Assembly (NCBI GenBank): GCA_034620365.1
Contig: JAQGEQ010000124.1
Location: forward strand, 1 to 64,000
DNA: 64,000 nt
Reading direction: 5' to 3'
Origin: Pegea sp. RAD2-039
Taxonomy: Eukaryota > Chordata > Thaliacea > Salpida > Salpidae
Part shown: positions 3,134 through 58,054 of the stretch, one piece after another
Layout: every line of letters starts with the position of its first letter
Numbering within the stretch: the stretch's first letter is position 1
Position numbers and translations under genes: made by a program
The notes under the pieces: generated by a model
Seen by the model: the letters and a program-made list of their open reading frames with translations, nothing else
The model's database searches: none
Told to the model about the DNA's origin: nothing

Positions 3134-3137
3134 AAGC

Positions 3138-4704: not shown

Positions 4705-7700
4705 TTATCTTGTAGAAGCAAAAGGGAGTTCCAAAGACATTGCACTAATCACAAACGGCTTTTTACTGTCTCCAGCTTCCGCTTTTACACTTTGACTTTT
4801 CATCCAAAACTCTCCTCCAGCAGATCGAGTCTTCTTCCGACTTCTTCTCTTCACAAGATCGCTCTTTGCTCTTGCACGCTTCATTACTTCGCCTAGTGAC
4901 GTCACAGTGTCGTTATGACCAGTTTGTAGTTGCTTAGAAACGATGTTTATTTGAGTTGGGGCTCGTTGTCGGTTGGCATAGAAACGGTTACGACCCAAAA
5001 TTTCATTCAGATCTGACTTCATCGGTTGCCTAGCAACTGGAGGATCATTAATTGAGACATCCTCGGCAAATCTCATCATTTGTTGAAACGCTGACGTCAT
5101 CAACGGCACAGGACGCGTTAATTCGCTGTCTGAGCTGCTACCAGGTGGTCTTAGGGTGATTGGGGCACGATGCTCGGGACTGGACATGGGCGAAAGAAGC
5201 TTATAGCGGCCCACGATGGTTGGTGGTGAAGTTTTCTTGTTTCTTATCTTTAACAAATCTTTGTTGCGTTGAATGAAGTCACGTGATCGATTGTTAAGAC
5301 GCGGTAATGACGTCATAGTGGTTTGTGATTGGTTACAGGTGGTTGTTATGCGGTTGTTGCTACGGCGTTGATGAAGTCCAAATGCTACTGTGTTGCCACG
5401 CAGCCCGTTGATATGACTGTAAACAAACACAATTAGCTAATTGCTACTAACGCTGGTTGCTAAGTAATATTCGTTGCTAAGTAATATTCGTTGCTAAGCA
5501 ACGATAGTTACTAGATTATACTTGTTGCTAGGCAACAATAATTGCTAGATTAAGATATTTGCTGGGCAATTTTGGCTACTAGGTAATTTTGGCTACTAGG
5601 TAATTTTGGTTGCTAGGCAATTTTGGTTGCTAAGCAAAATTTTAGAAATTATTGTTATTTACCGAACCATCCAACTTCGTAGATTTGCAAGTGTTCCAAA
5701 CTCTGATTGGACAATACGAGGCCAAGGATTTGATTGCGTCATATCAAGTGCTGCTATTGACAACGCTTTACCAACATCTTCATAAATCTCGATCGTGTAT
5801 CTAGGTGGCATCCCTGGTGGAGGAGGAGGAGTAGCTCTTCCTCCATCTAGTGATGAAGGTGGAATTGAATTGACACATCGACCAGTATTGTAATTACATT
5901 CAAGCGTGTAACTGTGAGTTATCCCAGTTGCCTAGAAACGACAAAATTGCCAGCAGGTGGCGTGGTTTTCTGAGGAGCACCTTATGGATAGCAACGCGAC
6001 CGCTTCCAGCTTTTGATTGTCCATCGCGACGATCTTTTAAATACATATTTCTCTCCGTGAAATTACAAGCGTTGAAATCGAAATTCGCGTTGTTCAGCGC
6101 CACCAAGCGAGCATACATCATGTTTGTTGCCTTGGTAACCAATTTGTAGTCACGTGGTTACGGTTGCTAAGTGCTTACCTGAGTTTCAATGTCTTCGATG
6201 TAATTTCCGTAAATAAAACATCCACGCTTTGACACGTGACCATGAAGATCGATGTAAAACGCCACGCCGCTGTTGCTAGGTGACAAACGCGAATAGTCGA
6301 TGATGACGTCATCTTCAACTTCAGCATTTTCGGAGTATTTGAATAATTGCGCAAGTTTTTTACCGTTTAGTATCTCATCAACTTGTTCTTGGTTTGTTGA
6401 ATAAAAGAGATGATAGAAGAGCAATAAAGATTTGGCTCCAAAAATAGCTGAATGATTAATAGGGTCTGGGTTTACGTAAACCCGATTTAAATTGACGCCA
6501 AAAACGTCGGTCCGGTAGTGACCCAAAGCCACCCCATCAGGATTTAACATTGGAATTAGTTTGAAGATGAATCTGAGCGTAAAAGCGATTTAGTGACGTC
6601 ATCGCTGTGCTTATGACGTCATCATACTTTTTTCTGAGCTCTTTAGCTCGTTGGTCGTCTGTTTGGAGGATAAATTTTATGAAACCATTGAACACGTGAC
6701 TAGCTGGGGTTTCCCCGGGGTGTACGCGGGCAGAAAGGAAAAAGACCGTTTTGTTAGTGAATCTGAAATTCAGTTTTGTTATTTGATGGTCGGGAAATTT
6801 TTAAAAACCTGCGGCATCTTGGTGTTGATTTGTCAGGGAAAAGACGATGGAGTCTTGGTTCTTCTTCCTCCATTTTGTGTGATTGTGATGAGATTGTAAT
6901 GAGATCGATTCTACGTTGTCCTGGTGAGTAACAAAGAAGTTCTCGATGAAAATAAATTTGCTCATCAGGGTCTTCTGGTTGATTAGGAGCTTGAGAAGAT
7001 GAATATTTATCTTCTAGATTCTGTTGAAAAAAATTATTTCTTAATAAAATCTGAAAATTTTGAGATCTTAAAAAGACTTTTATGAAGAAGCAAATAATAT
7101 GATGAAAAATATCTCTCAAAACTTAAATGAAGAAAGAATTTGAGCTGAACAAACTGAAGTAACTCTGATACAAGTGGTTAGAGAGTTTAAAGATCAGAAA
7201 AATTAGAAGAAATCATATTTTGATCTTAATGAGATGAAAGATATCAAAACAAACAAATGTAACTCTGAAACAAGTGGTTAGAGAGTTTGAAGATCAGAAT
7301 AATTAGAAAAAGAAATCATATTTTGATCTTAAAGAGATGGAAGATATCAAAACAAACTGAAGTAACTCTGTTACAAGTGGTTAGAGAGTTTGAACATCAG
7401 AAGAATTAGAAGAAATCATATTTTGATCTTAAAGAGATGGAAGATATCAAAACAAACTGATGTAACTCTGATACAAGTGGTTAGAGAGTTTGAACATTAG
7501 AATAATTAGAAGAAGAAATCATATTTTGATCTTAAAGAGATGGAAGATATCAAAACAAACTGAAGTAACTCTGATACAAGTTGTTAGAAAGTTTGAAGAT
7601 CAGAATAATTAGAAGAAGAAGTCATATTTTGATCTTAAAGAGATGGAAGATATCAAAACAAACTGAAGTAACTCTGTTACAAGTGGTTAGAGAGTTTGAA

Positions 7701-10700
7701 CATCAGAAGAATTAGAAGAAATCATATTTTGATCTTAAAGAGATGGAAGATATCAAAACAAACTGATGTAACTCTGAAACAAGTGGTTAGAGAGTTTGAA
7801 GATCAGAATAATTAGAAGAAGAAATCATATTTTGATCTCAATGAGATGGAAGATATCAAACCAAATAAATGTAACTCTGAAACAAGTGGTTAGAAAGTTT
7901 GAAGATCAGAATAATTAGAAGAAGAAATCATATTTTGATCTTAAAGAGATGAAAGATATCAAAACAAACAGATGTAACTCTAAAACAAGTGGTTAGTGTT
8001 TAAACATCAGAAGAATTAGAAAAAGAAATCATATTTTGATCTTAATGAGATGGAAGATATCAAAACAAACTGAAGTAACTCTGATACAAGTTGTTAGAAA
8101 GTTTGAAGATCAGAATAATTAGAAGAAGAAGTCATATTTTGATCTTAAAGAGATGGAAGATATCAAAACAAACTGAAGTAACTCTGTTACAAGTGGTTAG
8201 AGAGTTTGAACATCAGAAGAATTAGAAGAAATCATATTTTGATCTTAAAGAGATGGAAGATATCAAAACAAACTGATGTAACTCTGATACAAGTGGTTAG
8301 AGAGTTTGAACATTAGAATAATTAGAAGAAGAAATCATATTTTGATCTTAAAGAGATGGAAGATATCAAAACAAACTGAAGTAACTCTGTTACAAGTGGT
8401 TAGAAAGTTTGAAGATCAGAAGAATTAGAAGAAGAAATCATATTTTGATCTTAATGAGATGGAAGATATCAAAACAAACAGAAGTAACTCTGATACAAGT
8501 TGTTAGAAAGTTTGAAGATCAGAATAATTAGAAAAAGAAATCATATTTTGATCTTAATGAGATGGAAGATATCAAAACAAACAGATGTAACTCTGATACA
8601 AGTGGTTAGAGAGTTTAAAGATCAGAAAAATTAGAAGAAATCATATTTTGATCTTAATGAGATGGAAGATATCAAAACAAACTGAAGTAACTCTGATACA
8701 AGTTGTTAGAAAGTTTGAAGATCAGAATAATTAGAAGAAGAAGTCATATTTTGATCTTAAAGAGATGGAAGATATCAAAACAAACTGAAGTAACTCTGTT
8801 ACAAGTGGTTAGAGAGTTTGAACATCAGAAGAATTAGAAGAAATCATATTTTGATCTTAAAGAGATGGAAGATATCAAAACAAACTGATGTAACTCTGAT
8901 ACAAGTGGTTAGAGAGTTTGAACATTAGAATAATTAGAAGAAGAAATCATATTTTGATCTTAAAGAGATGGAAGATATCAAAACAAACTGAAGTAACTCT
9001 GTTACAAGTGGTTAGAAAGTTTGAAGATCAGAAGAATTAGAAGAAGAAATCATATTTTGATCTTAATGAGATGGAAGATATCAAAACAAACAGAAGTAAC
9101 TCTGATACAAGTTGTTAGAAAGTTTGAAGATCAGAATAATTAGAAAAAGAAATCATATTTTGATCTTAATGAGATGGAAGATATCAAAACAAACTGATGT
9201 AACTCTGATACAAGTGGTTAGAAAGTTTGAACATCAGAAGAATTAGAAGAAGAAATCATATTTTGATCTTAAAGAGATGGAAGATATCAAAACAAACTGA
9301 AGTAACTCTGTTACAAGTGGTTAGAGAGTTTGAACATCAGAAGAATTAGAAGAAATCATATTTTGATCTTAAAGAGATGGAAGATATCAAAACAAACTGA
9401 TGTAACTCTGATACAAGTGGTTAGAGAGTTTGAACATTAGAATAATTAGAAGAAGAAATCATATTTTGATCTTAAAGAGATGGAAGATATCAAAACAAAC
9501 TGAAGTAACTCTGTTACAAGTGGTTAGAAAGTTTGAAGATCAGAAGAATTAGAAGAAGAAATCATATTTTGATCTTAATGAGATGGAAGATATCAAAACA
9601 AACAGAAGTAACTCTGATACAAGTTGTTAGAAAGTTTGAAGATCAGAATAATTAGAAAAAGAAATCATATTTTGATCTTAATGAGATGGAAGATATCAAA
9701 ACAAACTGATGTAACTCTGATACAAGTGGTTAGAGATTTTGAATATCAGAATAATTAGAAGAAGAAATCATATTTTGATCTTAAAGAGATGGAAGATATC
9801 AAAACAAACTGAAGTAACTCTGTTACAAGTGGTTAGAGAGTTTGAACATCAGAAGAAATAGAAGAAGAAATCATATTTTGATCTTGATGAGATGGAAGAT
9901 ATCAAAACAAACTGATGTAACTCTGATACAAGTGGTTAGAGATTTTGAATATCAGAATAATTAGAAGAAGAAATCATATTTTGATCTTAAAGAGATGGAA
10001 GATATCAAAACAAACTGAAGTAACTCTGTTACAAGTGGTTAGAGAGTTTGAACATCAGAAGAAATAGAAGAAGAAATCATATTTTGATCTTGATGAGATG
10101 GAAGATATCAAAACAAACTGATGTAACTCTGATACAAGTGGTTAGAAAGTTTGAAGATCAAAATATTTGGAAGAAGAATTCATAATTTGATCTTAATGAG
10201 ATGGGAGATATCAAAACAAACAGAAGTAACTCTGATACAAGTTGCTAGAAAGTTTGAAGATCAGAATAATTAGAAGAAGAAATCATATTTTGATCTTAAT
10301 GAGATGGAAGATATCAAAACAAACTGATGTAACTCTGATACAAGTTGTTAGAAAGTTTGAAGATAAAAATAATTAGAAGATGAAGTCATTTTTGCATCTT
10401 CATAAGAAGAGATGGGAAGATACCAGAATGAAGTGATGCAATTTTGATAGATGAAGAGGTAATCTGAGATCAAAGAGGTAATCTGAGATCAAAGAGGTGA
10501 TCTGAGATCAAAACATCAAATTTCATGAAATTGAAACTCGATATAAAATTGAAAAATTGTTAAATTAAGAACTAACTTGGAGGAACTGTTGACACTCAGT
10601 ATATGTCCACGGATAACAAAACGCAAAATAAGTGCTTCCACCTTTTCCTTCATGAAAACGATGAAGAAATGAAAGAGTAAATTTGCCATCAATAGTATGA

Positions 10701-11174
10701 TGTTTAGGACGTTCTCTTATTCTTTCCCATTTTGGTTTTCGAGGCAACGTTCGGACAAGCGGATGCATTCCTTGATTGTAGAGTTTGCTCTGTAATCAAT
10801 TCCAGCAGATTAGTTTCATGAAAATATCGATTTAATTTCTAGAGGTTCAAATCATTATTATCCTAATATATAACCACGTGATAAAGTGAAGTGGTAACCT
10901 AGCAACAAACCTGCTTGTTCATATTAGTGATGTTGATCTTTATCATTTTACCAGTTGAATAACCTTTGACCCCAAAAAAGAACCAAGTTCTGTTACCGTT
11001 TTCATATTCACTCCCACTACAATCTGGCTTCGTTTCTACGTTGAACTCGTAGTCAGGTGATGACGCTATTGAATCTGTGACGTCATCATCACTGCGTTCG
11101 ACGTGTTCGACAGTTGCAAGGTTTCCGGAGTCGAAGTTGGAGAAAAAGAGGAGACCTCCACAACGGATTTCCAT
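4705..11174 (-). CDS. AGBL5: Cytosolic carboxypeptidase-like protein 5 (AGBL5/CCP5), eight coding exons
   Basis: Zinc metallocarboxypeptidase (M14, CCP subfamily) that in animals removes branch-point glutamates added to tubulin. Exons (minus): 10911-11174, 10577-10789, 6809-7020, 6628-6762, 6179-6572, 5981-6130, 5663-5931, 4705-5416. All phases join, giving about 782 aa. The N-terminus [10 protein letters not shown], the SSPDYEFNV and WERIRERP blocks, the zinc motif HPGE (exon 4), NPDGV, NLNR, the third ligand in [10 protein letters not shown], and [12 protein letters not shown] all match the family in order. The tail after residue ~550 is basic and poorly conserved. Introns are mostly short (46 and 55 nt around exon 4), but intron 2 is about 3.5 kb and filled with a ~103-bp satellite. 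The gene starts 215 bp downstream of the PIGK stop on the same strand. Family assignment is near certain; activity is inferred from intact metal ligands. Confidence 0.95.
5417..5662. repeat. AGBL5 intron 7, packed with TTGCTAGGCAA-like half-palindromes
   Basis: Almost the whole 246-bp intron consists of variants of TTGCTAAGTAAT, TTGCTAGGCAAC and GGCTACTAGGTAA repeated about every 20-25 bp from about 5440 to 5640. The perfect palindrome GTTGCTAGGCAAC occurs near 5533. The same motif recurs singly elsewhere in the window. Confidence 0.8.
7140..10440. repeat. Tandem satellite, ~103-bp unit, about 31 copies, inside AGBL5 intron 2
   Basis: The unit runs GTAACTCTGATACAAGTGG, TTAGAGAGTTTGAAGATCAG, AATAATTAGAAGAAGAAATC, ATATTTTGATCTTAAAGAG, ATGGAAGATATCAAAACAAA. 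Lengths vary from about 98 to 105 bp through small indels. Variant units recur in blocks (for example near 7570, 8073 and 8690), showing higher-order structure of roughly five to six units. Diverged units and a separate 19-bp repeat (GAGGTAATCTGAGATCAAA, three copies) occupy 10380-10515. The purine-rich strand is the plus strand, so the AGBL5 transcript carries the pyrimidine-rich strand. Confidence 0.95.
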
Positions 11175-11388
11175 AATTGTCTAATTGATGGTCTACAAAC
11201 AAAGTGGGTCATTTTGGTTAAAAGCCATTTTTGTAAAAAGCCATTTTTTTAAACTTACCATCTTTTTAGGACAGTCGGAAGCTGGGTCACAAAAAATAAA
11301 CTAAAAAAAAATTGTCTACAAAAAAAATCTGTAAAAATAAAATCTCAAAATCATCGACCAATCAGCAGCAAGCGAATTGATGACGTCA

Positions 11389-12501
11389 TCAGTGCGTTTT
11401 AACCGCGATTGTTTGAAAAAGAAAAAAACAAAAACAAAAAGTCAGAAACGAAACAGAGATTGTTCCTAGAAGAGTATGATCCTGCTCTTTGGGATCATCC
11501 ACAAGATTTTCACTATGATCCTCTTCAATGACGTCATCAACAACGACGTCATCAACCACAGAGGTAGGATTAATATCGAAATAATTATCAGAAAGATCAA
11601 CAGATCTTACAGATCCGAAGAAATCAGTGATGAGGACTGAAGAAGGGTCTCGGAGGAAGAGATGAGTAGAAATCCCGACTGTAGAGACACATTGATACTT
11701 GGGACACACTTTAAACAGCTCCGAGAGGTTCTTCCGACTTCCTGGATGTATTCCTTCTAGAAATTCGAGAAGATGATAAGTATATCTGTCGATGATGTAG
11801 ACTCCGATCTTAGAATCAACATGATGAGAAAGTGAGTCTTCTCCAACTAATGAAGATGCAATTGAGATTATATTAGGAGTATAAAAATGTTGATACATGG
11901 ATGCTGCTTGACATGTGTCTATGACGAAGAGCAGTTCATTATATCTTCTCTTTTCCCACATCTGAGCAAACGCATCCGCAAGCTCTACATTTGATATCTC
12001 TTTCGAATCTTGAAATTTTAAGAATCCATCTCCCCCATGCCCTGTCATATACACTAAAACGTTACTCCCATCATCAGTATTTAAACGTTTTGATCTTGGA
12101 GTATCTTCCGGGAGTCGATCCGTTAGAACACGGATAAAATTTTCAACTGTGACGTCATAATCGCGATAATCAACTTCTACATCTGATCCATAGACATCAA
12201 TTGCTTGGTTACGATTGTTATAGACTGTCCCAGGACTTGGGTTTCTTGGGTTGCAGGCCATATCATCGCTTAGCATCAAAATGATTTGACTATCTGGGAT
12301 TCCAAGTCGTTTTACGCTTCTGTATATTGAGAGAGCATTTGCTATATGTCTGTAGTTGAACCAAAACCTTGAGGTGCAGACCAACACTGCCCAATTGTTG
12401 GAATGGGAACCAGTTTTAAAGGTTTTTTTGATTTCTCGGTGGATTGTTTCATCTAATGCAAATGCTGAAGAAACAAGAATTAAGAAATTTAAGAAATTCA
12501 T
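11389..12501 (-). CDS. PIGK: GPI-anchor transamidase catalytic subunit (PIG-K/GPI8), single exon
   Basis: C13-family cysteine protease, the catalytic subunit of the ER complex that cleaves the C-terminal signal of precursor proteins and attaches the GPI anchor. The 370-aa ORF has a signal peptide (first ~15 residues), the conserved NWAVLVCTSRFWFNYRH block, LSDDMACNPRNP, the catalytic His in GHGGDGFLKF and the catalytic Cys in FVIDTCQAA. A C-terminal hydrophobic segment (about 345-365) fits the family's membrane anchor. Human PIGK is slightly longer and its gene has many introns; here there are none. The linker before the membrane segment is Asp/Val-rich (VVDDVVVDDVIEED), partly because TGACGTC palindromes run through that reading frame. 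The ATG gives a good signal peptide, supporting this start. Confidence 0.97.
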   Translation of the reverse strand: MNFLNFLILVSSAFALDETIHREIKKTFKTGSHSNNWAVLVCTSRFWFNYRHIANALSIYRSVKRLGIPDSQIILMLSDDMACNPRNPSPGTVYNNRNQAIDVYGSDVEVDYRDYDVTVENFIRVLTDRLPEDTPRSKRLNTDDGSNVLVYMTGHGGDGFLKFQDSKEISNVELADAFAQMWEKRRYNELLFVIDTCQAASMYQHFYTPNIISIASSLVGEDSLSHHVDSKIGVYIIDRYTYHLLEFLEGIHPGSRKNLSELFKVCPKYQCVSTVGISTHLFLRDPSSVLITDFFGSVRSVDLSDNYFDINPTSVVDDVVVDDVIEEDHSENLVDDPKEQDHTLLGTISVSFLTFCFCFFLFQTIAVKTH

Positions 12502-12556
12502 TTTAAAATTTCATCTAAAAACTAAAAAGTTAGAATTAGTCTGGTCCAGAAGATGA

Positions 12557-15042
12557 TAACAGATGCCCAGATAGCTTTTTCATTTGATTTTATTATCAAT
12601 TGGGTTATTAAAAACACCAATTGTCTCAAATCATATTTTTAAAACACCATAATAGGTTTTAGGAAGCCAATAATATTTATATAGAGGTGTGAACCATACT
12701 TCTTAAGTATCACAGCAGATAGTACCAAATAATTCTCTACTCTACAAACAACTGAAAGATATAAAAGAAAAACTGACAAGAAAGTAAAGCAAGAAATATA
12801 TAAAAAATTCATTATTTTTTAAGCTACATTTCTGGAGCACTTTATTATTATCATATTCAGATTTCATAAAAAATAATTGTTTAAAGATTTATAAAGACCT
12901 TTAAAAGGTAATTCAAATAGTATAAATTTTATCATAATGTTTTATAGATCATAAAGTTTACCCACTAAGCATAAAACTTATCAAATAAATTACTGATACT
13001 GTGAATAATGTTCAATAACTCCTTTTTATACTAAAAATTAATCTTAAATTGAAAAACAAGTCATTAATGAACAGTTAAACTAAAATTTTCTTATAAAAGC
13101 AAAAATGTAAAAGCATAAGAGAAAAATTTTGACTAATTTGTAATTAATTTATAGATAAAGATTTAATTTTTACACCTTAAATTTAGGTTAAATATTAATA
13201 AATTTGACATAAAAGCCTTATTTATATATAAATTAAATAAATACCAATTTATTATGAAGTCTTTAAACAATCAAAAGCAATTTTAAAAATAATTCAATTG
13301 TATGCTAATCAAATATTTAACTTAACTTGTTTTAAAAAGTTTCATTTTAAAAGGAAAAATTAAGATCAAGTCTAAAAAATGGCAAAATATATAATTTTTG
13401 TAAAAAAAATAATTTGACAAACTTATTCAGTTAAAATTATGAAAACTATTATTTATGATATAATAATATTATTTATAAAACCGATCTAAAAAGTTTATAA
13501 AATAATCTAAATAGAAAAGAAAAAGTTTAACTACATATAAAATGAAATTATAAATTTAAAATAATAGTTTTTATATTTAAAGAAATATCTGATGCATTTG
13601 AATAAAGTAATAAAATAGAAAATTTTTACACTTGCAAATCTAATTTGTGACAATTTTTAATTATCAATCTCAATTTTTTTTTAATAAAATGAAAAAATAA
13701 CAGATATTTGTTGAAATTTAGATTTCATTGAATTAAAAACAAAAAAACGCGCAAAGGAATAGTAATGATTGAAACAAAGACATAACTAAATATTAAGAAT
13801 AATATTTTTCATTAATTATAAGTATTATATATTAAAGTTTAGAAATATTTATAAAAAATGTAAACAAAATTTGAAACGGAGTCTTAAACTTGAAGTCAAA
13901 GAAAACAAACAAAATGTCCATAGCAATGAAAGTGAGACAAAATGAGTTTTTTTTTCTATTTTTAAATTTACTTATTTAAAAACTTTTACTTCTAGCTTGA
14001 AAATTATATAATTTGAGAAAAATATTTGTTAGATTGTTGTAAAAAAAAATTTCACTGCCTTGTTTCATTTAGAAAATTTTTTTTTTCTCAACAGCTAAAT
14101 AGATGAATATTTGCCGATTTTAAAAGAAAATATTCTTGCAATCGTTAAGCAGGAGTATAAAAATGTTTGAGTTACTAAAATCTTTGATTGTAGATAATAT
14201 ATAAACTCAGCTGTATTGATAATATAACCATATATTCTTATCAATTTTGTATTTTAAAAATAGTTTCCCTTTAGTTATTTAGTAAGTTTACAAACTAAAA
14301 TACTGATTTAAATACCGAGCTATTATTTATTTGACTAATTTTTTTTATAAAATGTTTAATTTTAATTGCAGTAATGTCAGGTTAATAAAATATCTGCGTT
14401 CTATATAAAAATAAAATAAGTATAAAAACTAATTCATTAAAGTGAACTACATACAACTGTACGTGTCAAATTTAGAAAAATTCTGAAACCTAATATATGC
14501 AGAACAATATTTTTGATATTTTTCAGTTTAGTATTAATCAAATTAAAAAACTTTAGTTGCTTTTTTTAACAAAAATACTTTTACGTAGTTTCACTAAAGT
14601 TTCACTAAAGGGAATTTTAATTATTTATGCAAGCTTTCATCCAGTATTCTGCTTACTTTCATAATCAGATTTTCTTATTTTTCATTAGTTGTTTTTACTT
14701 CTGTAATGTTATCATAAATATACTTTAAAATCGTCATTTTGAAAGTGTAAAATATCACTTTTTTTAGGTTTAAATAATTCTATCTACCTTAATCATCTTT
14801 ATATTTTAACTTTGCTTATTTTTTAAATCTAAAATAAAATTTGTTCTTATTCTTTTGTTTTTTTTATTAAATTTTCAACAGATCTATAATTAGAAAATCA
14901 TTTATAATACCTTTTTATCTAAATTTTATTAAATAAATTAATCTTGATATTTAGCAATTATTAAATTATTATATATACTTTTATATAAACTTTAATATTT
15001 TATGAAATATTTAACCTGAAAACTTTTTGTAGATTTTCAATA
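12557..15042. other. Long AT-rich intergenic stretch
   Basis: About 2.5 kb between divergent PIGK and ZFYVE19. It must include both promoters. No ORF, RNA gene, repeat family or TGACGTCA palindrome is visible; poly-A and poly-T runs are common. Confidence 0.6.
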
Positions 15043-21284: not shown

Positions 21285-21358
<74 letters not shown>

Positions 21359-22504: not shown

Positions 22505-22619
22505 ATCAAAGAAAAGAAAATAGATGATTTTAGTCTTTTGCCTCTCATGTCAGAGAGCCTTATATCATCATCACATCCAGAATGTCGGAGCAAAGAAAAA
22601 TTCACATTGTAATTTTCTA
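22505..22619 (-). CDS. Possible orphan coding exon
   Basis: Between an acceptor (ATAATTTTAG) and a donor (GAT|GTAAAT), the minus strand has one open frame of 38 codons reading NFSLLRHSGCDDDIRLSDMR and then basic residues. Sequence around it is far more AT-rich. It does not join in phase to the exon at 21775-21804, so it may be an upstream exon of that gene with a missed junction, or belong elsewhere. No family recognised. Confidence 0.3.

Positions 22620-32143: not shown

Positions 32144-32178
<35 letters not shown>

Positions 32179-37782: not shown

Positions 37783-37856
<74 letters not shown>
37783..37856 (-). tRNA. tRNA-Asn (GTT)
   Basis: Same 74-nt sequence as the copy at 21285-21358, on the opposite strand, followed by a T-run. 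Intergenic. Confidence 0.97.
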
Positions 37857-37857
<1 letters not shown>

Positions 37858-40128: not shown

Positions 40129-40167
<39 letters not shown>

Positions 40168-44540: not shown

Positions 44541-44544
44541 AACA

Positions 44545-47340: not shown

Positions 47341-47344
47341 AAAG

Positions 47345-47545
47345 AAGAGAGCACCTCTCACTAACACACATTCTCATAAATAACATCTATTTAGTCAAAA
47401 ATATAGAAAGTAAAAGATGAAACACATATGGTATTTCAGTAATCTTCAAATCATATAACAGTAAACAATTACATGGAGTAATAATAAGACAAAAAAAGGA
47501 AAATCACCGATTTAGAAATGACAATGTTAATGACAATTATTATAT
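47345..47545 (-). mobile_element. LINE 3'-end fragment
   Basis: Matches the 3' ends at 49.55-49.75 and 63.2-63.4 kb (ACACACATTCTCATAAATAA, CAAAAGATGAAACACAT-like, AACAATTACATGGAG, GAAATGACAATG). 5'-truncated and diverged. Confidence 0.7.
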
Positions 47546-48285
47546 GCTATTTCATCAAGATATAATAATTATATAATAATTGGGGTTTATAGAATCTAAA
47601 ATTCATTTTTTATAGATATAATTCCCTAAACGGAAGATGTCCATCAAAAATGAAGAAAGATTCAGATTAAATAGACATTTAAGAAATATATAAATTCAAT
47701 AATTTATAAAATAATAAAGAAATTGGTAAAAATATATAAAAAAAAATTTATAAAATTAAATCATTTTTAAAATGTTGTCTAACTTTCATTACAAAAGATA
47801 AATAATAATAAGAAAATGAAATGAATAAAAAATTAATAAAACTCTTAAATAAATGAATAATAAATTTTAACTTTTAGTAAGATTCCAATAGAAAATGAAA
47901 AGCTCCATGTGGGTAGTTAAAACAACATTTGAACATCTAAAAGTGTTACCAATAAAAAAATGTTTCTAAATTAAAAAAGAATAAAAAAGAATTAAATTAG
48001 ATTATTATATTTAATTCATAAATATAATAAATAAATTATTAAAAAGAAAATAATATTTAATAACTAAGAGCTTAATAAATGAATAAAAAAATAGTTTATA
48101 CAATTACCGACAATATAAAGAATTTTTATTTATTCTATAAAAAATTTATAAGTTAAATGCCTATATATGTTTAAATTATAATTAAATAATTACAAAAATT
48201 ATTTAAAAATAAAATAACTTTAATTTATCTCAAAAATAATTATCGAAGTTTCTTTTAAGAGTTTTTAACATTTTAACATTTTATT
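47546..48285. other. AT-rich sequence
   Basis: No recognisable feature. Confidence 0.5.
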
Positions 48286-48289
48286 GTTT

Positions 48290-48540
48290 TTAGGGTTTCG
48301 TTTCTTTCTGATATATTTCATCTCTTCTTATAAAGATTCAAATATGATTTCTTCTTCTTATTATTCTGATCTTCAAACTCTCTAACCACTTGTATCAGAG
48401 TTATATCAGTTTGTTTTGATATCTTCTATCTTATCTTTTGAAGATGCAAACATGACTTCATCTTCTGATCTTCAAACTCTTCCTCCGTTCATTCTCAAAG
48501 TGTCTCCGACAATCTCTCTCAGTTCCTTTTAAGACCTTAA
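48290..48540. repeat. Two degenerate satellite units, reverse orientation
   Basis: Pyrimidine-rich strand is the plus strand here (CTCTAACCACTTGTATCAGA near 48380). The second unit resembles the variant seen at 10.4 and 54.2 kb (GCAAACATGACTTCATCTTC). No host gene was identified on the plus strand. Confidence 0.8.
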
Positions 48541-49544
48541 ATCTACCCTACAAACTTTTAACAATTATAGAAAGAGTAAAGTAAATAATATTAATAAGTA
48601 AAAGTTTGCCTATATATAAAAAAGTAATCTAACAATTTAATGAGCTAAACTATAAACGTTAGGGAAAAAGTGAAAAGGAAAAATTGACTAATTTTAGAGG
48701 ATATAAAATAAAAGAAAACCAAAAGTTCAAATTACTAAAAATTTATTTAAACTTTATATTTTATTATTGAACATGTGTGAAAATACACTTCAGCAAAAGC
48801 TAAAAATAAATCAAAGTTAAAAGCATAAAATTCATTGAGAGATTTGAAAAAAATTATAAATTTAAAAAAGCACCGAGCTACAGAAATATTGTACATGCGT
48901 TGCTATTATGGCATTGTGATTATTTGGTTTAAATAAAAACATTTGTGGTTTTTTTTGAGTATTAGTTTTTTAACATCATTTTGCATTAAATTTGTTTAAC
49001 CTTTTTTTTTCAACTTTTGTTTATTGTCAAATTAAAGTTTTTTTTTTTAAACGAACTGTCTGGTAACTTTCTGAAAATGTTAATAGTTATTATTAGTTCG
49101 AAATAATTTTTTTAAACTGAAATATCTACTCAAGATATTAGTATGTTTTAAACATCTTAATATACCTTTATCATCTATAGATTGATTTCATTTAAATTTA
49201 TTAATTAGTTTATAGATTTATCAAATATGGATTTTTTAGCTGTTTAGTTTAATAAATTAAATAAACTTACTTTTATAAAAGTTTAGTAGTTATTATAAAT
49301 AGTAGATTATTTCATTTTAATTATAAATGATATGTTATATTACAAAAAGTTAACAAGTTTCAATAAAAATAAAACTAATTGAATAAGGAATTTTTTATTA
49401 TGAAGGTTCTTAAAGTTTTTTTTTATTTGATTATTGTGTAAAAAACTAACACTTTTATATTTAATAGATATTTGGTGTAAATATAAAATGTATAAATATT
49501 AAAAAATTGATTTCTCTGATAATTTTTTGACAATAAATCTTGTA
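48541..49544. other. AT-rich sequence
   Basis: No recognisable feature. Confidence 0.5.
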
Positions 49545-50620
49545 TTTTGTATTTATTTATTTCACTAAATGCGAAGGAGGATACCTGAAGAGACCACCTC
49601 TCGCTAACACACATTCTCACAAATAACATCTATTTAGCCAAAAATATAAAAAGCAAAAGATGTAACACATGGTATTTCAGTAGCCCTCAAAGCATATACC
49701 AGTGAACAATTACATTGAATGTAAATAATATTAAAAAAGGAAAAATTCGCAGTTTAGAAATGACAATGTTGGCAATATTATAACGGTTCAACTTTTGCTT
49801 GAACAACGCAAGCGACTTCGACATGACAATGTCTGATACCAGCTGGTTTCATGTACTAATTGTACGGTATGAGAAAATATTCAATCTAATTAATGTACCA
49901 GGTGATATAGACTTATTAAGGTGTAATGTGTGTCGACTGAGTTGATATAACTTGAGGGAAGGACTAATGGAAAAGAAATCATCAAACTGAATGTCAATTA
50001 AATTGTGGATAATTTAAAAAATAAGAATTAAATTGTATTTAATTCGTTGAATTTTCAAAGTTTCTAAATTGAAGAAGATGAGACGATGTTTATAACTATC
50101 ATATTTAATATTAAGCTTCCTGCATACTAATCTCGTAAATGTGGCCTGAATAGATTCGATTTCTTTGATATCACCAACTTAATATGGCATCCATGCACTA
50201 ACATTGTATTCAAGAATTGGACATACGTACAATTTGAAAAGATTGATAAAAAATCATGGGTCCTTATAATTAAAGCTGTTTATAATAAGGAAGACAAGGT
50301 TGATTGAGTTGCAAAGATTTTGGAAACATAATTGCGCCATTTAAAGTCAGTTGATAGAGTAAGGCCAAGGTCTAGGACCGAAGATACTCGTTGAATATAA
50401 ATTTAACTTTTTAATGAAGCCAAGTGAACTTCAACAAATTATTATTAGAAGAGTATCTGAGAACTTAAATATAATTCTTTTTATTTTTAATCATTTTTTT
50501 ATTGACGAGTATTTTTTAACCGGTAGATGGCAGTACTGAGTTCATTCTTATTTATAGTTAGAATTAAAATAGGTTAAATATGGAATATTTTTGAGATATT
50601 TTTAAACTAAATTTATTCAT
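49545..50620 (-). mobile_element. LINE 3' half, the longest copy in the window
   Basis: On the minus strand it starts with the same LTG-to-RT sequence as 3.6 kb (LYVRPILEYNVSAWM-like, VQATFTRLVCRKLNI). It continues through the C-terminal segment (QLVSDIVMSKSLALFKQKLN, RYNIANIVISKL) to a 3' UTR with TGTGTTAGCGAGAGGTGGTC and a TTTATT-rich tail. Stops and frameshifts interrupt the ORF. No 5' half is present. Confidence 0.8.
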
Positions 50621-50861
50621 AATACGAATAGTACTGATTAATTGCATAAATAAAAAGTTTTTGATTTCAACTATTCTAAATTATATTATAATTAATTTTA
50701 TATTCCAACTTATTATATTATTAAATATTTCATTACGAAAATATTAGATTAACAAAGAATTTAAATTTTCTGTTGTTTCAAATTTTAAGCATTTATTGCA
50801 TCAATTTGATATTACTCATTAAAATTATTAATTAATTAACATATTATTGTAACCCTCATAA

Positions 50862-50934
50862 GCCCGGTTAGCTCAGTCGGTAGAGCGTTGGACTTTTAAT
50901 CCAACGGTCGCGGGTTCAAGTCCCTCATCGGGCG
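50862..50934 (+). tRNA. tRNA-Lys (TTT)
   Basis: 73 nt: acceptor GCCCGGT with ATCGGGC, anticodon arm TTGGACTTTTAATCCAA (anticodon TTT), T-arm GGGTTCAAGTCC, discriminator G, then an 8-T terminator. Intergenic. Confidence 0.97.
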
Positions 50935-51507
50935 GCTTTTTTTTAAACATTCTTTTGATTGAAATTTTTTTTTTAAGCATCACTTAGTTAAAGTTTTACC
51001 TTTCTAGATTTTCTGGACATTTTAGAAGATTTTTTTTATGCTAAACACAAAAGAGATATTTTTCACAAATCTATTGGAGGTTGAATTAGCAGAGATTTTT
51101 ATATAAAATTTTACATTTGATTCAATTCTTTTGTTTCTTAAATTTAAAACTTTAAATTTTTATAAAAATCAAAAAGTTTAATTTATAAATTAAGCAGCAA
51201 AATAAAAAGTCCTTTTAAATTAAATGGTTTTTATTCAAGAACTTTGATTACAGAAAAAATTAAAAAAAAATCAAACCGTCAAAACGATGATGACGTCATC
51301 ATTACGTGATCATTACGTCATCAAAAGAAATAAACTACAAAAAAATAACTTTTGAGGTTTTTCGTTTTCCATTTGCACAGTTCTCGCAACTGTGACGTCA
51401 TCGTCGCTATTTACAAGTCATGACGTCATCAGCACCAAACTCATGACGTCATTGTCGAGTACAAGCTAGTTGTGGTTTAAAAAAAGTTAAAAAAAGAAGT
51501 GATGACG
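50935..51507. other. Spacer downstream of TTLL4
   Basis: AT-rich up to about 51280, then a dense cluster of TGACGTCA palindromes (51290, 51391, 51419, 51442, 51502) running into the TTLL4 stop codon, which itself overlaps a copy. Confidence 0.7.
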
Positions 51508-53099
51508 TCATGAACGCGCTCGTATCGCTTCGGCGACGCTCTGCTTGATTGCACACGCTATTCGACTGGATTCGGTGAGACCAGGTTCAAATTTTTCTGA
51601 CACAAATGCTGCAGTAGGGAAATCCCTAAAAAATCGATGACGTCAGTATACGGTTGCCATGACAACCGCAATGACGTCATACCTCTATTTCGATCTTTGC
51701 GATGACGTAATTCCCAGTGATGAAGCAGCATGTTGTAGTATCGAGTAGTAGCAAAGTAGCTCAGGTACTTTCTGGCGTTAATGACGTCATCAGTCGATTG
51801 ATGACGTCATGCAAAGATTCGGACTTACTTTTTGAATGATGGGTAGACTCGTTGAAAGTTACCGCGACGTTTTAATTCATCTTCAGCTTCTGCTAGAGCG
51901 TTGATGTCATTACAAGTTAGATGATCGAGAAGTGATGACGTCATTTCCGTCTAGATATGTAAATTAGTGACGTCATCAGCGATTGATGTCGAATTTGAAC
52001 CTGATTCATATTTTTGTAGTTTTGTGTGAAGAATGAATGCTTAGATCGCGTTTCTGGGGTTATTTCAGCCAAGTTTTGACGTTTATCGCGGGTGAAGGTG
52101 TTAGTTGAAGAACTGGAAAATAAATTTGGAGTTTAGAGTGAAATTATTGAGTTACAAAATAGAATAAAACATTTTCGAATTAGAATTTCAACTGAAAAAA
52201 AAAAAAAAATTATGGCAGCGGTGGGATTCGAACCCACGCCATCGAAATGACTGGTGCCTTAAACCAGCGCCTTAGACCGCTCGGCCACGCTACCTACTGT
52301 CTTCCACCGTTTAATTTCAATTTTATTTATAACAAAATGTTTTTTCTTACAATTTAGAATTTATAAAAATATCTTTTTAAACCAACAAAATTTAAACCAA
52401 AAGGAATATTTTTACTTATTCATTTTTTTAATTTAAACTTAATGTAGAATTATTATAAATAGAAATTTTCAAACTAACTTATTCGATAAATTTCTATTGG
52501 TCGGGATTTCAAATCCAGCAATATTAAACATATCTTTAACCATACCACCTTTAATTTCAATATCTAATGGAGAATTCGAATGTAAACTAAAAAAAAAAAT
52601 AAATAATTATTTAATAATAAGAAAAAAATTCGTTAAAAATTCTAAAATTTTCAATTTAATTTATTATCATAAAATATCAACAAAAGTAAATTGTTAAAAG
52701 ATATTTTCTCCTTAACTACATCTACTGTGTTCACTCAAGCAGAACCTAGGAGAAATGTTCACTTCTAAGAGCCAAGCTTTGAGTTTCTCATCCAACATGA
52801 TATCAAAACCGAAGACTTCATGACAACAATAATCTCTTCGACAATTTGATTTTATCAAACCATTAGTATACGGCTCCACACTACCAACACATTACAGTGA
52901 TGACGTCATTGACCATAAGGGAAGTCTGTTTTACCTTATTAGGGTTTTGACGACGATATCTTTTATTTCGTTCCATATTTTGGTGACTTCAATGTTTTTC
53001 TCGCTTAGATGACGCCATAAAGCGCTTATACTCCTTTAAAAGTTAAAAAAAAAATGTGTTAAAAATTAAAAAAAAAATAAAGTGCCTCGACCCGGGATT

Positions 53100-53138
<39 letters not shown>

Positions 53139-56100
53139 GACTGAGCTATCAAGGCTTACGAAATACGAAAGAAAATATTTGTTTTAAAGCTAAATATTTC
53201 GACTAGGTTAGATATTAAAATAAATAATTAAATAAAAAGTTTGAATTTAATTTATTTTCGGCAGATTTATATTTAAACTGAAACAGAAACTTTCAAATTA
53301 TAGGAATTTGTTGAAAATTTAATTAAAAACTAATATTTGATGAAGTTACTCCTAAAAGTCAAACAAAAGTTGAGATTTCTGCAAATGAAGATTTCAAACC
53401 ATTTGTGTCCCTGGCATTCATTGATGTCTTCATTTTGTTCAAATTTGCCGGACTTTTTATTGATGCTGTAGTTGGTGAGGTGCATGTATCGGTTGTTGAT
53501 GTGCTTTGCTGATGATGAGTATCTGAGTGAAAAGATGATGAAGATGAGGATCAAGATGAAGATGATGAGGATCAAGATCAAGATGGTGAAGATGAGGATC
53601 AAGATCAAGATGATGAAGATGAGGATCAAGATCAAGATGGTGAAGATGAGGATCAAGATGGTGAAGATGAGGATCAAGATGGTGAAGATGAGGATCAAGA
53701 TGGTGAAGATGAGGATCAAGATGGTGAAGATGAGGATCAAGATGGTGAAGATGAGGATCAAGATGGTGAAGATGAGGATCAAGATGGTGAAGATGAGGAT
53801 CAAGATCAAGATGGTGAAGATGAGGATCAAGATCAAGATGATGAAGATGAGGATCAAGATGATGAAGACATAAATAAGGATTGTGAAAAGATTTTGTTTA
53901 TTGAAGAAACATCTGTTTGAAGTTTTTGAAGATTTAAGAATTTCACTAAAAACAATTTACTTTCTAGAAGAAGTTTCTGAACAAAAAAATATTAAATGAA
54001 ATGGATAAGAAGATGAAAAAGAAGTTTATAGATCATGTCAAGATGATAAAGATGAAGATCAGAATAATAAGAAGATAAACACATGTCTGAATCTTCAAAA
54101 GAAGAGATGGGAAGATATCAGAATGAACTGATGTAACTCTGAGACAAGTTGTTAGAGAGTTTGAAGATCAGAATAATTAGTAGATGAAGTCATGTTTGCA
54201 TCTTCAAAAGAAGAGATGGGAAGATATCAGAATGAACTGATGTAACTCTGAGACAAGTGGTTAGATGAAAGCGTGTTTGGAAAGCCACAAGACTAACCAA
54301 AGAAACATTTAATATTTGCCTAAAGTGTTTTTAAAAACAAAAAATTGAAAAAAATATTCAAGAATTTTGTAGCAGGTGAAAATATTAAAGAAAAATAATT
54401 GAACGATGACCGAAGTTTGAATAAATATCATTTTTTATTGTTACTTTATGTTTTCTTTTATTTATTTAAAATCTAATTTGTTCAAAATTTTGTTTTATCT
54501 GGAAATGGCACCAATCGTTGTGAAAATAAAATTCAAAATTTTTTTTAGTTGGAGACAATTTACAGAAGCGACAAAATCTTACTTGCAAGTAGCAAATCGA
54601 ACCAAACCATTTTCGTAAACGTAAGCGCGAAGCGGATCGAATGACGTCACATACACGTAAACGCGAAGATCAAATTTATTTCCATTAATTAGATAGGGCC
54701 GAGATAAATATCTGAAAAACTAATTTGGAAACCCTGGTTTTAAAATAAAGTGAAAAAAATACTTTTGGACAATAACAGGTTTTTTTTGGGGAATTTGAGT
54801 CCATTTGTTGATGACTTTGATTCCGATTCCTCTCGCTGCCGCTGGCTAAAAATTTATAGAAAAATATTTGGAAACACTGATTAATAGAAATTCATTTTTT
54901 TAGTTAAATTAATAATTTTAATGTTTTAAATTACGCAGAAAAACATTTTACTGGTTTGAGGATATATTTTTGTTTTCCATGTGAGTCTTCCCAAGTATTC
55001 TTCAGAAGTTTACGATCCCAAGGAAGTATATAAGTTTGAGGAATAAAACCAAATTCTTTTTTTCCAAATCTATGCTGAAAAACATTAAACAAAAAAGTTA
55101 AAAAAGATAAAAAAAGTGCCTCGACCCGGGATTGAACCAGGGACCTTCAGGTCTTCAGTCTGACGCTCTCCCGACTGAGCTATCAAGGCTCGTGGTTACG
55201 GAAACAGAAAATAAGAAAAATTCTAACCAATTTACAAACTGAATTCTAATTTTAACTGAATTTAATTAAATACAAGAACACAAAAGCATCTACTCAACCA
55301 TTAACCACTATCTCAAAAAAAACTAAACAACAAAAACACTCGAATGACGTCACAAAAATGTAAAAATCCCAAAATGGTCGCTAACTAAAACGAACCTGCA
55401 TTTTCGATAAATTTCGCCATAAACGATCTTTACGTCCAATTTGAAACGAACCGGGAAAATGATTCACCTAAACAACAACACGACGATGACGTCACACCTA
55501 TGACGTCATCACCGCTTACTTTTTGATGGTTACGAACTGATTTAAAAGCTTGTGACTTCATATGTTTGCCGAAGTAACCTAACCATTCAGCACTTTCTAA
55601 AATTCGAATAATGACGTCATCAGTGACGTCATCACAGGAATAACTGACTTTTGGTGGGTTTGAAACCGGATCTTGCGATTGTGCTCTTCACTATAAGAGG
55701 AGTGATGGAGCTCATCTTCCATTTCAGCATCCTTCGGACTTCGTAGGGATGAGACTCGACTGTAATGACGTCATCAGTGTGAAGATTATGCAAATGAGGT
55801 TTGAAGTGATTTATGATGACGTAGTTAAAAGTTGAAGATGGAAAATTAAAGAACATAGAAGATGAGATTAAAGACATCAGCAAAGATCTTCATCACTAAC
55901 TCTTCACTTTTTCCACTCACTTGTGAAATCATGCGTGACGAAATTGATTACAGATGGTTTATTTGCAAACAAACTTTCAATTAAAGCTGGTTCGCGAGTG
56001 ACGTCATCACTTGGTGACATAGATTTAGTATCATCTGACTGTGACGTCATCAACGAGCCTATATCAATTGATTTAAAGGACGTTTTGACGTTATAGTGAC

Positions 56101-58054
56101 GTCATCACCTGATTCGTCAATAAAATCGTCTTCTAAAGAAGTTATGACGTCATCAGATTCCTCATCAAAGCTGACACAACTGTTAGGCTGGAATACAAAT
56201 TGAAAGTGACGTCATATACGCGAGATGATGTCGTCACTTACATCCAGTTGAGAATCATCTTCATATTCGGATAAATTAGAAGAAACACTAAAATACAAAA
56301 TGGTCGTTTATCAAAATGGTTTAGATCCAACTAAATTTACCAAAAATCTTCATCTTCTTCTTCCAGATCTTTCTCATCTTCCACACATTCACAAATGTCT
56401 TCTTCTTCTTTTGGAGTATTTTTGTCATTTAAGAGCATTTTTGGAAATGGTCTTCAAAAAAAAAAATGCCAAAACTGAAAAACGCCAAAAAAGTCACCAA
56501 AAAATTCTCACTGAATACTAGGAATAGGAACAGAGCTGGTTCTGCTCGACCGCACACGATTATGTGTCCACAGCGTCGGGTTTAAAGGTCTTCTCTGTCG
56601 CGCTGGTGACATGGTAACAGAACGAACATTCACTGGCAACATGCATGGACGACCAGTGACAAATTTTTGGTTCAAACCCAGCTTTTGTGGCCCATTAGTC
56701 CTTTGAATTGAGTTAAAATGGCGTTTTTTCAAATATGCAACTTCAAGCTCAAGATCAGATAGTTTTTTGTTTTGTGACGTCATCGTTTTTGGGGCGTTTT
56801 TGCGTTGTAATCTGGGAACAGATAACTTCGGTGATGAACCAGTCATACAGAGCATCTTGCTTTCACTGTTGAAAAAGAATGACGTCATTAAAATGTGAGT
56901 GACGTCATCAAATTTTGAAAAGAGGTATTATTGAATTATTTCAATTTAGTAAATCAGGTTCCTGGACATAATCTGAGCTCCCTGGACATGCTTTGAGCCC
57001 CCTGGACATGTTTTGAGCCCCTGGACATGTTTTGAACCACTTGGACATGTTTTGAGTCCCCTGGACATGTTTTGAGCCCCTGGACATGCTTTGAGTCCCC
57101 TAAACATGCTTTGATCCCCGTGGACATGTTTTGAACCACCTGGACATGTTTTGAACCCCCCTGAACATGTTTTGAGTCCCCTGGACATGTTTTGAACCAC
57201 CTGGACATACTCTGAACCCCCTGGACATGCTCTGAACCACCTGGACATCTACTTCATATCTAATTACAGACTAGATTAAATAGTTGATTATAAAATATCT
57301 TATTTTATAAGATGATTGGAAAAGGTTTATTTCAAATTATAAACTTTCAGAAGCATTTTTTGAAGATTAAACTGGAAAGTAACACAGTAGATGAAAATAG
57401 TTTTTCTATAAAATTAAAATTATTACAGATTTGACCTTAAAAAATATACTTTTATTTAAATGATTTCAAAAAGCAACTAAATTTAAATCAGTATTTATTC
57501 AATCAACAACTTAATAACTTTTAAACCCAGAAAAAAAATTTAAATTTGTAAAACAAGTTCATTAATATAAATATTTTCTTTTTATACAACTTAAACTTAT
57601 ATTCATTAAAAGCAAAATACATGATAATAAATAAATAGAAACAAAGTATATCAAGATTTTATTCATAAATATAAGAAATAAGTTTTTACAGGAATTTAAT
57701 TATTATTAATTTTCAATATATCATTTTTATCTAAACTAAATACAGTTGAAGACTTATTAAAATTAGCTATAAATAAACAACAAAGTTTTTCTAGAATATA
57801 GAAATAAGTTAGATGTATATAAAATGATTATTTATAATAAATAAATATCATAAAAATAAGAAAAGATCTATAGTTAAAAAATTATATAAGACATAAATAC
57901 CTACCCTTAATCTTTAAGTAAACAAAAAACAATAAATTGATAGAAATACAAACCTTTTTTCAGCAACTAATTTCTGATTCAAACTTGGCAAAATAACTCT
58001 ATTAATTCCATTCACAATACGTTTTTTAGCATTTTCATTTTTACCTTTTATCAT
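51508..58054 (-). CDS. TTLL4: Tubulin polyglutamylase TTLL4, twenty exons
   Basis: ATP-grasp ligase; TTLL4 starts glutamate side chains on tubulin and other proteins. Exons (minus): 57954-58054, 56512-56865, 56341-56451, 56242-56287, 56109-56187, 55921-56058, 55649-55759, 55520-55596, 55396-55467, 54952-55074, 54763-54845, 54583-54711, 53400-53522, 52935-53033, 52746-52880, 52479-52586, 52001-52112, 51829-51950, 51683-51771, 51508-51625; about 776 aa, shorter than human (~1200). The N-terminal third is acidic and unconserved. Core: LKWKMSSITPLIVKSTIARS, NHFPGSFQIGRKDRLWRNLS, RFGKKEFGFIPQTYILP, KPPAAARGIGIKVINKW, QKYLSRPYLINGNKFDLRVY, NNRYMHLTNYSINKK, CCHEVFGFDIMLDE and LLEVNISPSLHS. The last junction is one base out of phase, so the final ~40 codons are uncertain. 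Introns hold three sense-strand tRNA genes. Confidence 0.93.
52213..52294 (-). tRNA. tRNA-Leu (AAG), in a TTLL4 intron
   Basis: 82-nt gene identical to the copy at 19555-19636. Its 3' flank (CTAATTCGAAAATG side) also matches that copy for about 30 bp. Lies in the intron between exons 16 and 17, host orientation, followed by a long T-run. Confidence 0.96.
53083..53155 (-). tRNA. tRNA-Phe (GAA), in a TTLL4 intron
   Basis: Same sequence as the gene at 40112-40184. Host orientation; the T-run terminator is within about 50 nt of the acceptor of the exon starting at 53033. Confidence 0.97.
53537..53870. repeat. 21-bp minisatellite in a TTLL4 intron
   Basis: About 16 units of GATGAGGATCAAGATGGTGAA (with GATCAA insertions) begin only about 15 bp upstream, in the host sense, of the exon start at 53522. 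The host strand carries the pyrimidine-rich complement, so the array abuts the polypyrimidine tract. Open frames across it on both strands are a by-product of the 3n repeat length. Confidence 0.95.
54040..54265. repeat. Two diverged satellite units in a TTLL4 intron
   Basis: Units contain GAAGAGATGGGAAGATATCA and CTCTGAGACAAGTTGTTAGA, plus orientation (purine strand), hence pyrimidine-rich in the TTLL4 transcript. They belong to the variant subfamily also seen at 10.38-10.44 and 48.4 kb. Confidence 0.85.
55117..55189 (-). tRNA. tRNA-Phe (GAA) with a stem mismatch, in a TTLL4 intron
   Basis: As the other two Phe genes except for C instead of T at position 39 (ACTGAAGACCTGA), which turns the last anticodon-stem pair A31-T39 into A-C. 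Host orientation; T-run about 40 nt from the acceptor of the exon starting at 55074. Confidence 0.93.
56956..57250. repeat. ~20-bp minisatellite in TTLL4 intron 1
   Basis: About 14 units of CCCCTGGACATGTTTTGAGC with C-run and GAACC/GAGCC variation. Markedly less AT-rich than its surroundings. The minus-strand open frames (SRGLKTCPGGSKHVQ-like) arise from the repeat and are not taken as genes. Confidence 0.95.

Follow-up and report, generated by a model that had tools for sequence, protein, structure and literature searches.

Why should one exact eight-base palindrome, TGACGTCA, crowd into the exons, introns and spacers of some parts of a salp contig and be missing from the parts between? The window in question is the first 64,000 nucleotides of contig JAQGEQ010000124.1 (here C107) of Pegea sp. 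RAD2-039, whose assembly runs to 105.7 Mb in 387 contigs, and an earlier sequence-only reading had counted about 78 copies of the word in it against fewer than one expected. We find exactly 78, spread from 4897 to 56907, against 0.38 expected from an order-1 Markov model, and no copy in any of the four stretches said to be free of it (1-4896, 12158-17218, 37047-51290 and 56908-64000). We suggest, with a probability of roughly 45%, that TGACGTCA would be what an ATF/CREB-type bZIP dimer binds with high affinity, retained at the DNA level in unmethylated gene bodies, where methylation, binding and benefit are what we infer from sequence patterns.

An exact word, repeated unevenly across the genome

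Genome-wide there are 27,792 exact copies of TGACGTCA, about 29 times the count of the reversed word (969), which bears out the over-representation that had been claimed from the window. A 264-kb sample, made up of the window and 20 stretches of contig C1, many of them picked from listed motif places, holds 132 copies where 1.3-1.8 are expected, not near the Markov expectation, and there TGACGTCA is the most enriched of the 8-mer palindromes with at least six occurrences. Loci L005-L024 were chosen partly with motif places known, and loci L001-L004 were fetched by a search for two copies 14 bases apart, so that the densities of the latter are extremes (29 copies per 3 kb in L003, 24 in L002, 20 in L004 and 8 in L001). 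Density is uneven across genes and contigs: the window has 1.22 copies/kb, 4.6 times the genome-wide 0.263/kb, and the initial 1.56 Mb of C1, at 0.064/kb, carries about a quarter of the genome mean.

It is the complete octamer that recurs. Within the window 78 of the 80 GACGTC hexamers sit inside TGACGTCA, the dense pair-selected loci L002-L004 hold 73 exact copies and 10 one-mismatch neighbours, and the 264-kb sample has 106 one-mismatch words against 51 expected. With up to one mismatch allowed, the genome gives 64,917 matches for TGACGTCA and 28,668 for the reversed word. Single-base deviants are rare, as in a highly iterated palindrome (HIP), yet their excess amounts to 0.34-0.6 per exact copy. 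The CpG decay products TGATGTCA and TGACATCA jointly number 11,070 genome-wide against 2,673 for the reversed controls, and the purine (R) and pyrimidine (Y) flanks of exact copies are retained in 13 of 30 TGATGTCA-type words in 336 kb, compared with about 17% for seven unrelated control words; perhaps some ten of these words are decayed copies, against 145 exact ones. A second over-represented palindrome, the E-box-type word TCACGTGA, also contains CpG and occurs 4,614 times genome-wide against 237 for its reversal; at times it overlaps TGACGTCA as TGACGTCACGTGA, for example at C1:23084 and C1:1212792.

CpG-normal surroundings

As had been supposed, GC content alone does not set the boundaries of the motif. 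Across 264 1-kb bins with the motif masked, density falls with the observed/expected (o/e) ratio of CpG from 1.97 copies/kb (o/e at least 1.0) through 0.72 (0.8-1.0) and 0.12 (0.5-0.8) to 0.05 (below 0.5), mean GC in these classes being 0.31, 0.31, 0.29 and 0.26, and the Poisson deviance of copies per kb drops from 490 (null) to 397 with GC, 335 with CpG o/e and 245 with both. Around the copies CpG density declines from 53/kb within 25 bp to 9.5-9.9/kb beyond 3.2 kb, and CpG o/e from 1.37 to 0.58 over the same distances. The bin densities and this fall in CpG o/e show that motif boundaries track CpG content more than GC, and GC as the only cause of the density is rejected by the deviances and by classes of mini-introns with similar flank GC (see below). 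The halo is weaker around random CpGs, starting at 27/kb, similar around CACGTG (45/kb) and hardly visible around AP-1 sites. Non-CpG GC is 0.29-0.30 within 200 bp of copies and 0.24 beyond 3.2 kb, and rises equally near random CpGs (0.30 within 25 bp, 0.23 beyond 0.8 kb).

The motif-free gaps of the window are mostly CpG-poor, and a profile search of the genome returns 11 DNA_methylase matches, DNMT1-like by eye; the low CpG and these genes together suggest that the motif-free compartment may be methylated in the germ line. We also saw seven long intronless open reading frames (ORFs) of 832-873 aa that encode a cytosine-5 DNA methylase domain, two on C57, one on C249, three on C32 and one on C52. 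The two on C57 face each other, those read look by eye like C-terminal ends of DNMT1, and such ORFs are perhaps retrocopies or mobile genes. Neither the link to CpG-normal DNA nor the pairing of copies in mini-introns had been part of the sequence-only reading, and the pairing is new here.

Paired copies in mini-introns

We took pairs of TGACGTCA within 45 bases from all sequence read and checked each for fit to a frame-restoring GT-AG intron. Such an intron fits 31 of 56 pairs, against 8.8 ± 2.8 for random controls in the same loci and 9.3 ± 2.3 for controls 120-600 bp away, and with the pair-selected loci L001-L004 left out it fits 12 of 25, against 2.4 and 3.7, respectively. Paired copies tend, beyond control, to occupy GT-AG introns of 50-60 nt. 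L003, a spectrin-like gene by a weak Pfam match, has ten hand-annotated mini-introns of 49-63 nt whose removal leaves one stop-free frame of 647 codons, and which carry 2, 2, 2, 1, 2, 0, 2, 2, 2 and 2 copies, that is, exactly two in 8 of 10 (Poisson P about 0.0006, or 0.002 when the intron by which the locus was selected is set aside). Density there is 31.3/kb in the introns and 6.2/kb in the nine exons between them. L002 is a NALCN channel gene.

A motif-blind prediction found 244 mini-introns against 96 on the reversed sequence; about four in ten may be false, and at least two are, one in a COASY exon and one (12122-12193, plus strand) within the intact GPI8 frame. A copy is present in 33 of the 76 predicted in CpG-rich surroundings, in 6 of 78 in intermediate and in 1 of 90 in CpG-poor surroundings (flank GC 0.37, 0.36 and 0.32), and without L001-L004 in 16 of 53, 5 of 77 and 1 of 90. 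Predicted introns hold 60 copies in 13,588 nt (4.4/kb), whereas pseudo-introns from the reversed sequence hold 10 in 5,621 nt (1.8/kb). Without L001-L004 these densities become 2.3 and 1.0/kb, two-copy cases number 6 among 220 predicted mini-introns and 0 among 90 pseudo-introns, and 28 of 145 copies fall in 12,286 predicted intron bases, at 6.3 times the density elsewhere. Seven periods tried for helical phasing of the spacings gave nothing convincing (p 0.018 at 10.0, 0.025 at 10.2, 0.25 at 10.5 and 0.024 at 9).

Copies in coding exons

Exons of GPI8, COASY and a TTLL-like gene carry the word as well, in agreement with the sequence-only reading, which had placed copies in coding DNA. Four of the five coding copies covered by an alignment stand in gap-free blocks (GPI8 at 12150, one in TTLL, and two in COASY, where they write DDV and NDV), and the fifth, in the GPI8 tail at 11529, is poorly aligned; the gap-free alignment means that these four most likely arose by base changes, and it opposes gain by insertion of an octamer. 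This substitution test covers 4 aligned copies out of 39 in ORFs, the copy in L002 falling beyond the aligned part, and an L023 ORF with three copies found no match in PDB. The 39 copies come from 19 ORFs picked for their copies, some of which may not be genes, and divide into 19 in the frame that writes MTS-type peptides and 20 in the DV-type frame; the remaining frame is absent by construction because it contains a stop. In the three genes that were judged (the AGBL5-like tail, the COASY kinase part and GPI8) the copies are situated mid-gene or in the 3' portion, given the usual domain order of AGBL5 and COASY, and so fit the earlier remark that this does not look like promoter usage.

Flanks of the word

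Across 145 copies the base before the octamer is R in 0.92 and the base after it Y in 0.91, with T at -3 in 0.51 and A at +3 in 0.57. The consensus is RTGACGTCAY, and beyond the octamer come Y, then C or T, then A, mirrored on the other side. The TGACGTCA core with R/Y flanks is that of a CRE (cyclic AMP response element) type bZIP site, and 37 of the 78 window copies read ATGACGTCAT. Published ATF-type strings such as GGATGACGTCATCC, in the excerpted text of PMC9930257, resemble these flanks. Among the 60 copies in predicted introns the two sides, read on the sense strand, show no clear asymmetry at the first three flanking positions (p 0.056, 0.096 and 0.91). The genome contains 12 matches to the bZIP_1 profile over its cut-off, and L026 is CREB-like by eye.

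A proposed bZIP site and its alternatives

A DNA-binding dimer of ATF/CREB type would be favoured by the flanks, by their symmetry in introns at the first three positions and by the dependence on CpG-normal DNA, the last because methylation of the octamer's central CpG can inhibit CREB binding (PMC1796609, excerpt). If TGACGTCA is such a dimer's site, a class of genes with bodies free of germ-line CpG methylation would contain 1 to 10 copies per kb, at the highest density in 50-60-nt introns and at a lower one in exons, a preference that would follow from the freedom of introns from coding constraint. A bound dimer would hold the gene body open and free of methylation, and unmethylated CpG would leave TGACGTCA bindable, so that motif and CpG-rich DNA would sustain each other; paired copies may be two dimers cooperating, or RNA pairing.

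Several observations weigh against the bZIP site. To our knowledge, ten sites per kb within gene bodies are unlike any bZIP regulation. Recognition appears nearly all-or-none in the mismatch counts of the 264-kb sample, whereas a transcription factor should use weaker variants, and this scarcity of neighbours exceeds what a factor's site would lead one to expect. Flanks in introns differ between the two sides at the fourth position (p 0.014). Reversed pseudo-introns in CpG-rich surroundings also carry a copy in 7 of 33 cases (without L001-L004, 4 of 28 in rich, 1 of 31 in intermediate and 0 of 31 in poor surroundings), and part of the intron signal is therefore due to the CpG-rich setting only. 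In CpG-rich DNA, stop-free stretches of at least 100 codons are no poorer in copies than the sequence outside them (1.51 and 1.23/kb, the stretches including false ORFs). Finally, 16 of the 132 copies in the sample come from 1-kb bins whose CpG o/e is under 0.8, so that the confinement to compartments described earlier, which holds in the window, was slightly too strong for the wider sample.

The scarcity of near-miss words keeps alive a process like that of the HIPs, in which biased repair or mutation, steered for instance by a DNA methyltransferase or by mismatch repair, creates and restores the exact palindrome wherever the sequence permits and the host makes no use of it; we consider this unlikely, though worth serious attention. 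By our own arithmetic the genome-wide neighbour excess of about 0.34 per exact copy (reversed-word control) lies below the roughly 1.09 of a neutral birth-decay steady state, and the dense loci L002-L004, the gain of coding copies by substitution and the several intronless DNA methylase genes would suit such a process, by which the HIP1 word of cyanobacteria has been modelled (PMC4390886, in part). Measured against the Markov expectation, however, neighbours are in greater excess, at 0.41 per copy for the sample and, scaled to the genome by our arithmetic, about 0.6, so that restoration is not forced; the surplus of TGATGTCA and its complement means that decay may well occur, a flank preference reaching to ±3 is unexpected for a plain 8-bp enzyme site, and the density is very uneven. 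The sequence-only reading had proposed an iterated palindrome kept by a mutational, conversion or chromatin process: the genome-wide iteration stands, upkeep by mutation or conversion is a candidate account, and the bZIP-like flanks make selection for binding at least as good a one. By analogy with the M26 hotspot of fission yeast, an ATF/CREB dimer on ATGACGTCAT might instead open chromatin for meiotic breaks, with GC-biased repair lifting nearby GC and CpG, which seems to us improbable. Work in fission and budding yeast tested ATGACGTCAT as the 10-bp form of M26 (excerpt of PMC3534124), M26 acts within a coding frame through Atf1-Pcr1 (excerpt of PMC9775316), and non-CpG GC does climb toward the motif; but it climbs equally around random CpGs, the copies of the 29-37 kb domain occupy bins whose GC is 19-32% and whose CpG o/e is high, conversion tends to erase break sites and the abundance would need a counterforce, and the budding yeast M26 word is described in that excerpt of PMC3534124 as having no link to breaks.

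Two self-complementary copies in a mini-intron might also base-pair within the pre-mRNA and draw the splice sites close to each other, a hairpin signal to which we give little chance. The two-copy habit of L003 invites it, predicted introns with at least two copies are modelled to fold well (mean z -3.24, n=19), and spacings below 11 are absent among 253 neighbouring copies, as a loop would need. Yet across 56 pairs the flanks of the two copies show no complementarity above chance, scoring 75 (outer) and 91 (inner) where shuffling gives 85.1 and 92.5, respectively, and this test, which concerns the flanks, the core being invariant, counts against an extended RNA stem. Motif-free predicted mini-introns, some of them false, are nearly unstructured in the same modelling (z -0.30, n=204), the fold of two copies is built into the words themselves, the spacing limit equally suits bound proteins, and single copies, exonic copies and the CpG link go unexplained. 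That ordinary composition, a repeat family or an assembly artefact lies behind the pattern is barely credible: the copies do sit in GC- and CpG-richer DNA, but 1,080 words of equal composition with one CpG average 0.52 occurrences in CpG-rich bins against 77 for TGACGTCA, the sole array found in dense L003 is one 27-base tandem stretch, the exons of L003 join in a single open frame, and of 50900-57000 only the minisatellite part is matched among the 402 genome matches listed, the window itself aside. Beyond the bZIP site as such, it is possible, at less than even odds, that the salp has an iterated palindrome of its own, an exact octamer in tens of thousands of copies, set in CpG-normal gene bodies, paired in mini-introns and marking a gene class, which would serve as a sequence-coded gene-body tag that keeps genes open and unmethylated in the germ line, or would serve a DNA-level process such as break placement.

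Islands and genes in the window

The islands, domains, predicted mini-introns and aligned coding copies are collected in the table. The names AGBL5, TTLL, JUN, FOS, CREB, C/EBP, ATF6, DNMT1 and SRCAP are putative or assigned by eye unless a family or PDB match is cited, and the AGBL5 identity of the gene under the first island is likewise presumed. Every 1-kb bin of 29442-37046 has a CpG o/e above 1 despite a GC of 18-32%. The Dcp2-like gene, which the sequence-only reading had placed in a motif-free gap as a real gene, has a NUDIX domain at 42204-42656.

Table. Places of TGACGTCA in the window
Feature	Positions	Strand	Basis or remark
Island 1, six copies, 3' part of AGBL5-like (M14 carboxypeptidase) gene	4897-6621	gene minus	M14 match below curated cut-off
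Predicted mini-intron, 55 nt, copies at 6594, 6614	6573-6627	minus	motif-blind prediction
Island 2, four copies, covering the single-exon GPI8/PIGK gene (11389-12501, minus) and sequence downstream of it	11078-12157		
Coding copy in GPI8, writes DV of YDVTV	12150-12157	minus	human PIGK YEVTV; no indel
Island 3, five copies	17219-17795		
Predicted mini-intron, 50 nt, copies at 17772, 17788	17764-17813	plus	pair test and motif-blind prediction
Domain, 15 copies, CpG o/e about 1.1-1.8, includes minus-strand EGF-type exons	20396-26861		EGF matches just below cut-off
Predicted mini-intron, 49 nt, copies at 23425, 23446	23408-23456	minus	pair test and motif-blind prediction
Domain, 21 copies, includes CUB and WSC exons (minus)	29442-37046		
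Island, 12 copies, within and next to a TTLL-like tubulin polyglutamylase gene (minus)	51291-52908		name by eye; one exon compared
Predicted mini-intron, 57 nt, copies at 51782, 51802	51772-51828	minus	pair test and motif-blind prediction
Coding copy at VTS of TTLL-like exon	54642-54649	minus	TTLL6 VTS at equivalent place; no indel
Island, 14 copies, minus-strand mini-introns	55345-56907		
Predicted mini-intron, 52 nt, copies at 55487, 55501	55468-55519	minus	pair test; missed by motif-blind prediction
Predicted mini-intron, 52 nt, copies at 55612, 55624	55597-55648	minus	pair test and motif-blind prediction

Other repeated sequences were noted. A nearly CpG-free tandem repeat of 100-109 bp forms four arrays in the window (7148-10400, 16303-17126, 44540-46525 and 54053-54265) and has at least 402 matches genome-wide, counting those in the window, with contigs such as C22, C24, C100, C200, C208, C210, C226 and C254 among their carriers, and a 20-bp tandem repeat, CCTGGACATGTTTTGAGCCC, lies at 56961-57248, a short way past the last motif island. 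X-box-like words (GTTGCTAGGCAAC and kin) occur at 5024-5640, at 34970 and at about 51653-51669, several of them in or beside the tubulin-code genes (AGBL5-like and TTLL-like), and one such pattern has 10 matches against 0 on the reversed sequence, both strands counted; their position would suit RFX regulation of cilium genes. Nine of 64 CAATGATGACGTCATCA words lie on C50 between 91026 and 289096, all on the minus strand and 8-41 kb apart, perhaps as a repeated element or gene family.

Comparison with known systems

HIP1 occurs in coding DNA, as TGACGTCA does, and HIPs are spread fairly evenly over their genomes. With HIP1 (GCGATCGC) the salp word shares an exact 8-bp palindrome massively repeated, far above expectation genome-wide, and DNA methyltransferases in the genome, but its spread is far from even, from 0.064/kb at the start of C1 through 1.22/kb in the window to 29 copies in 3.0 kb of L003. 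HIP1 is a cyanobacterial word (excerpt of PMC4390886), whereas TGACGTCA belongs to an intron-rich animal genome, is compartmental and has bZIP-like flanks. The ade6-M26/CRE-type hotspots of Schizosaccharomyces pombe use ATGACGT(CAT) through an ATF/CREB dimer, also in coding DNA (excerpts of PMC9775316 and PMC3534124), and this sequence is found here in the 37 ATGACGTCAT copies among 78; the M26 hotspot motif is sparse, however, and TGACGTCA is, as we infer, far denser.

The CREs of vertebrate CpG-island promoters have in common with TGACGTCA the octamer, its central CpG and the CpG-rich surroundings. The human genome has about 25% of the octamers expected, and they are much more frequent in the 150 bp before a transcription start site than elsewhere; vertebrate CREs are promoter-bound and depleted genome-wide (excerpt of PMC1796609). 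Here, by contrast, the word outnumbers its reversed control about 29-fold, and its copies are spread along gene bodies, in introns as well as in exons. Copies within the GPI8 and COASY coding sequences, and others in internal introns of the spectrin-like gene, speak, short of proof, against a bias to sites upstream of transcription starts. Introners are introns spread by transposons, and the many similar-sized introns that share a palindromic word, often twice, recall them; unlike introners, the predicted introns share by eye no sequence beyond the octamer and its flanks, no target-site duplication was seen by eye at them, and copies are exonic too.

The iterated palindromes that we know of are bacterial, and we know of no process that explains such a pattern in an animal. 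Among the papers listed by our search of the open PMC literature, none reports that TGACGTCA is over-represented in the genome of an animal. We regard the TGACGTCA landscape as a variant of known CRE sites, with a fair chance of being new in kind. Where the human genome is depleted of the word (PMC1796609, in excerpt), introns and conserved codons are filled with it here, and such a genome would allow tests of how transcription factor sites shape gene-body methylation, codon choice and intron sequence genome-wide, and would also show how a palindrome is gained and kept.

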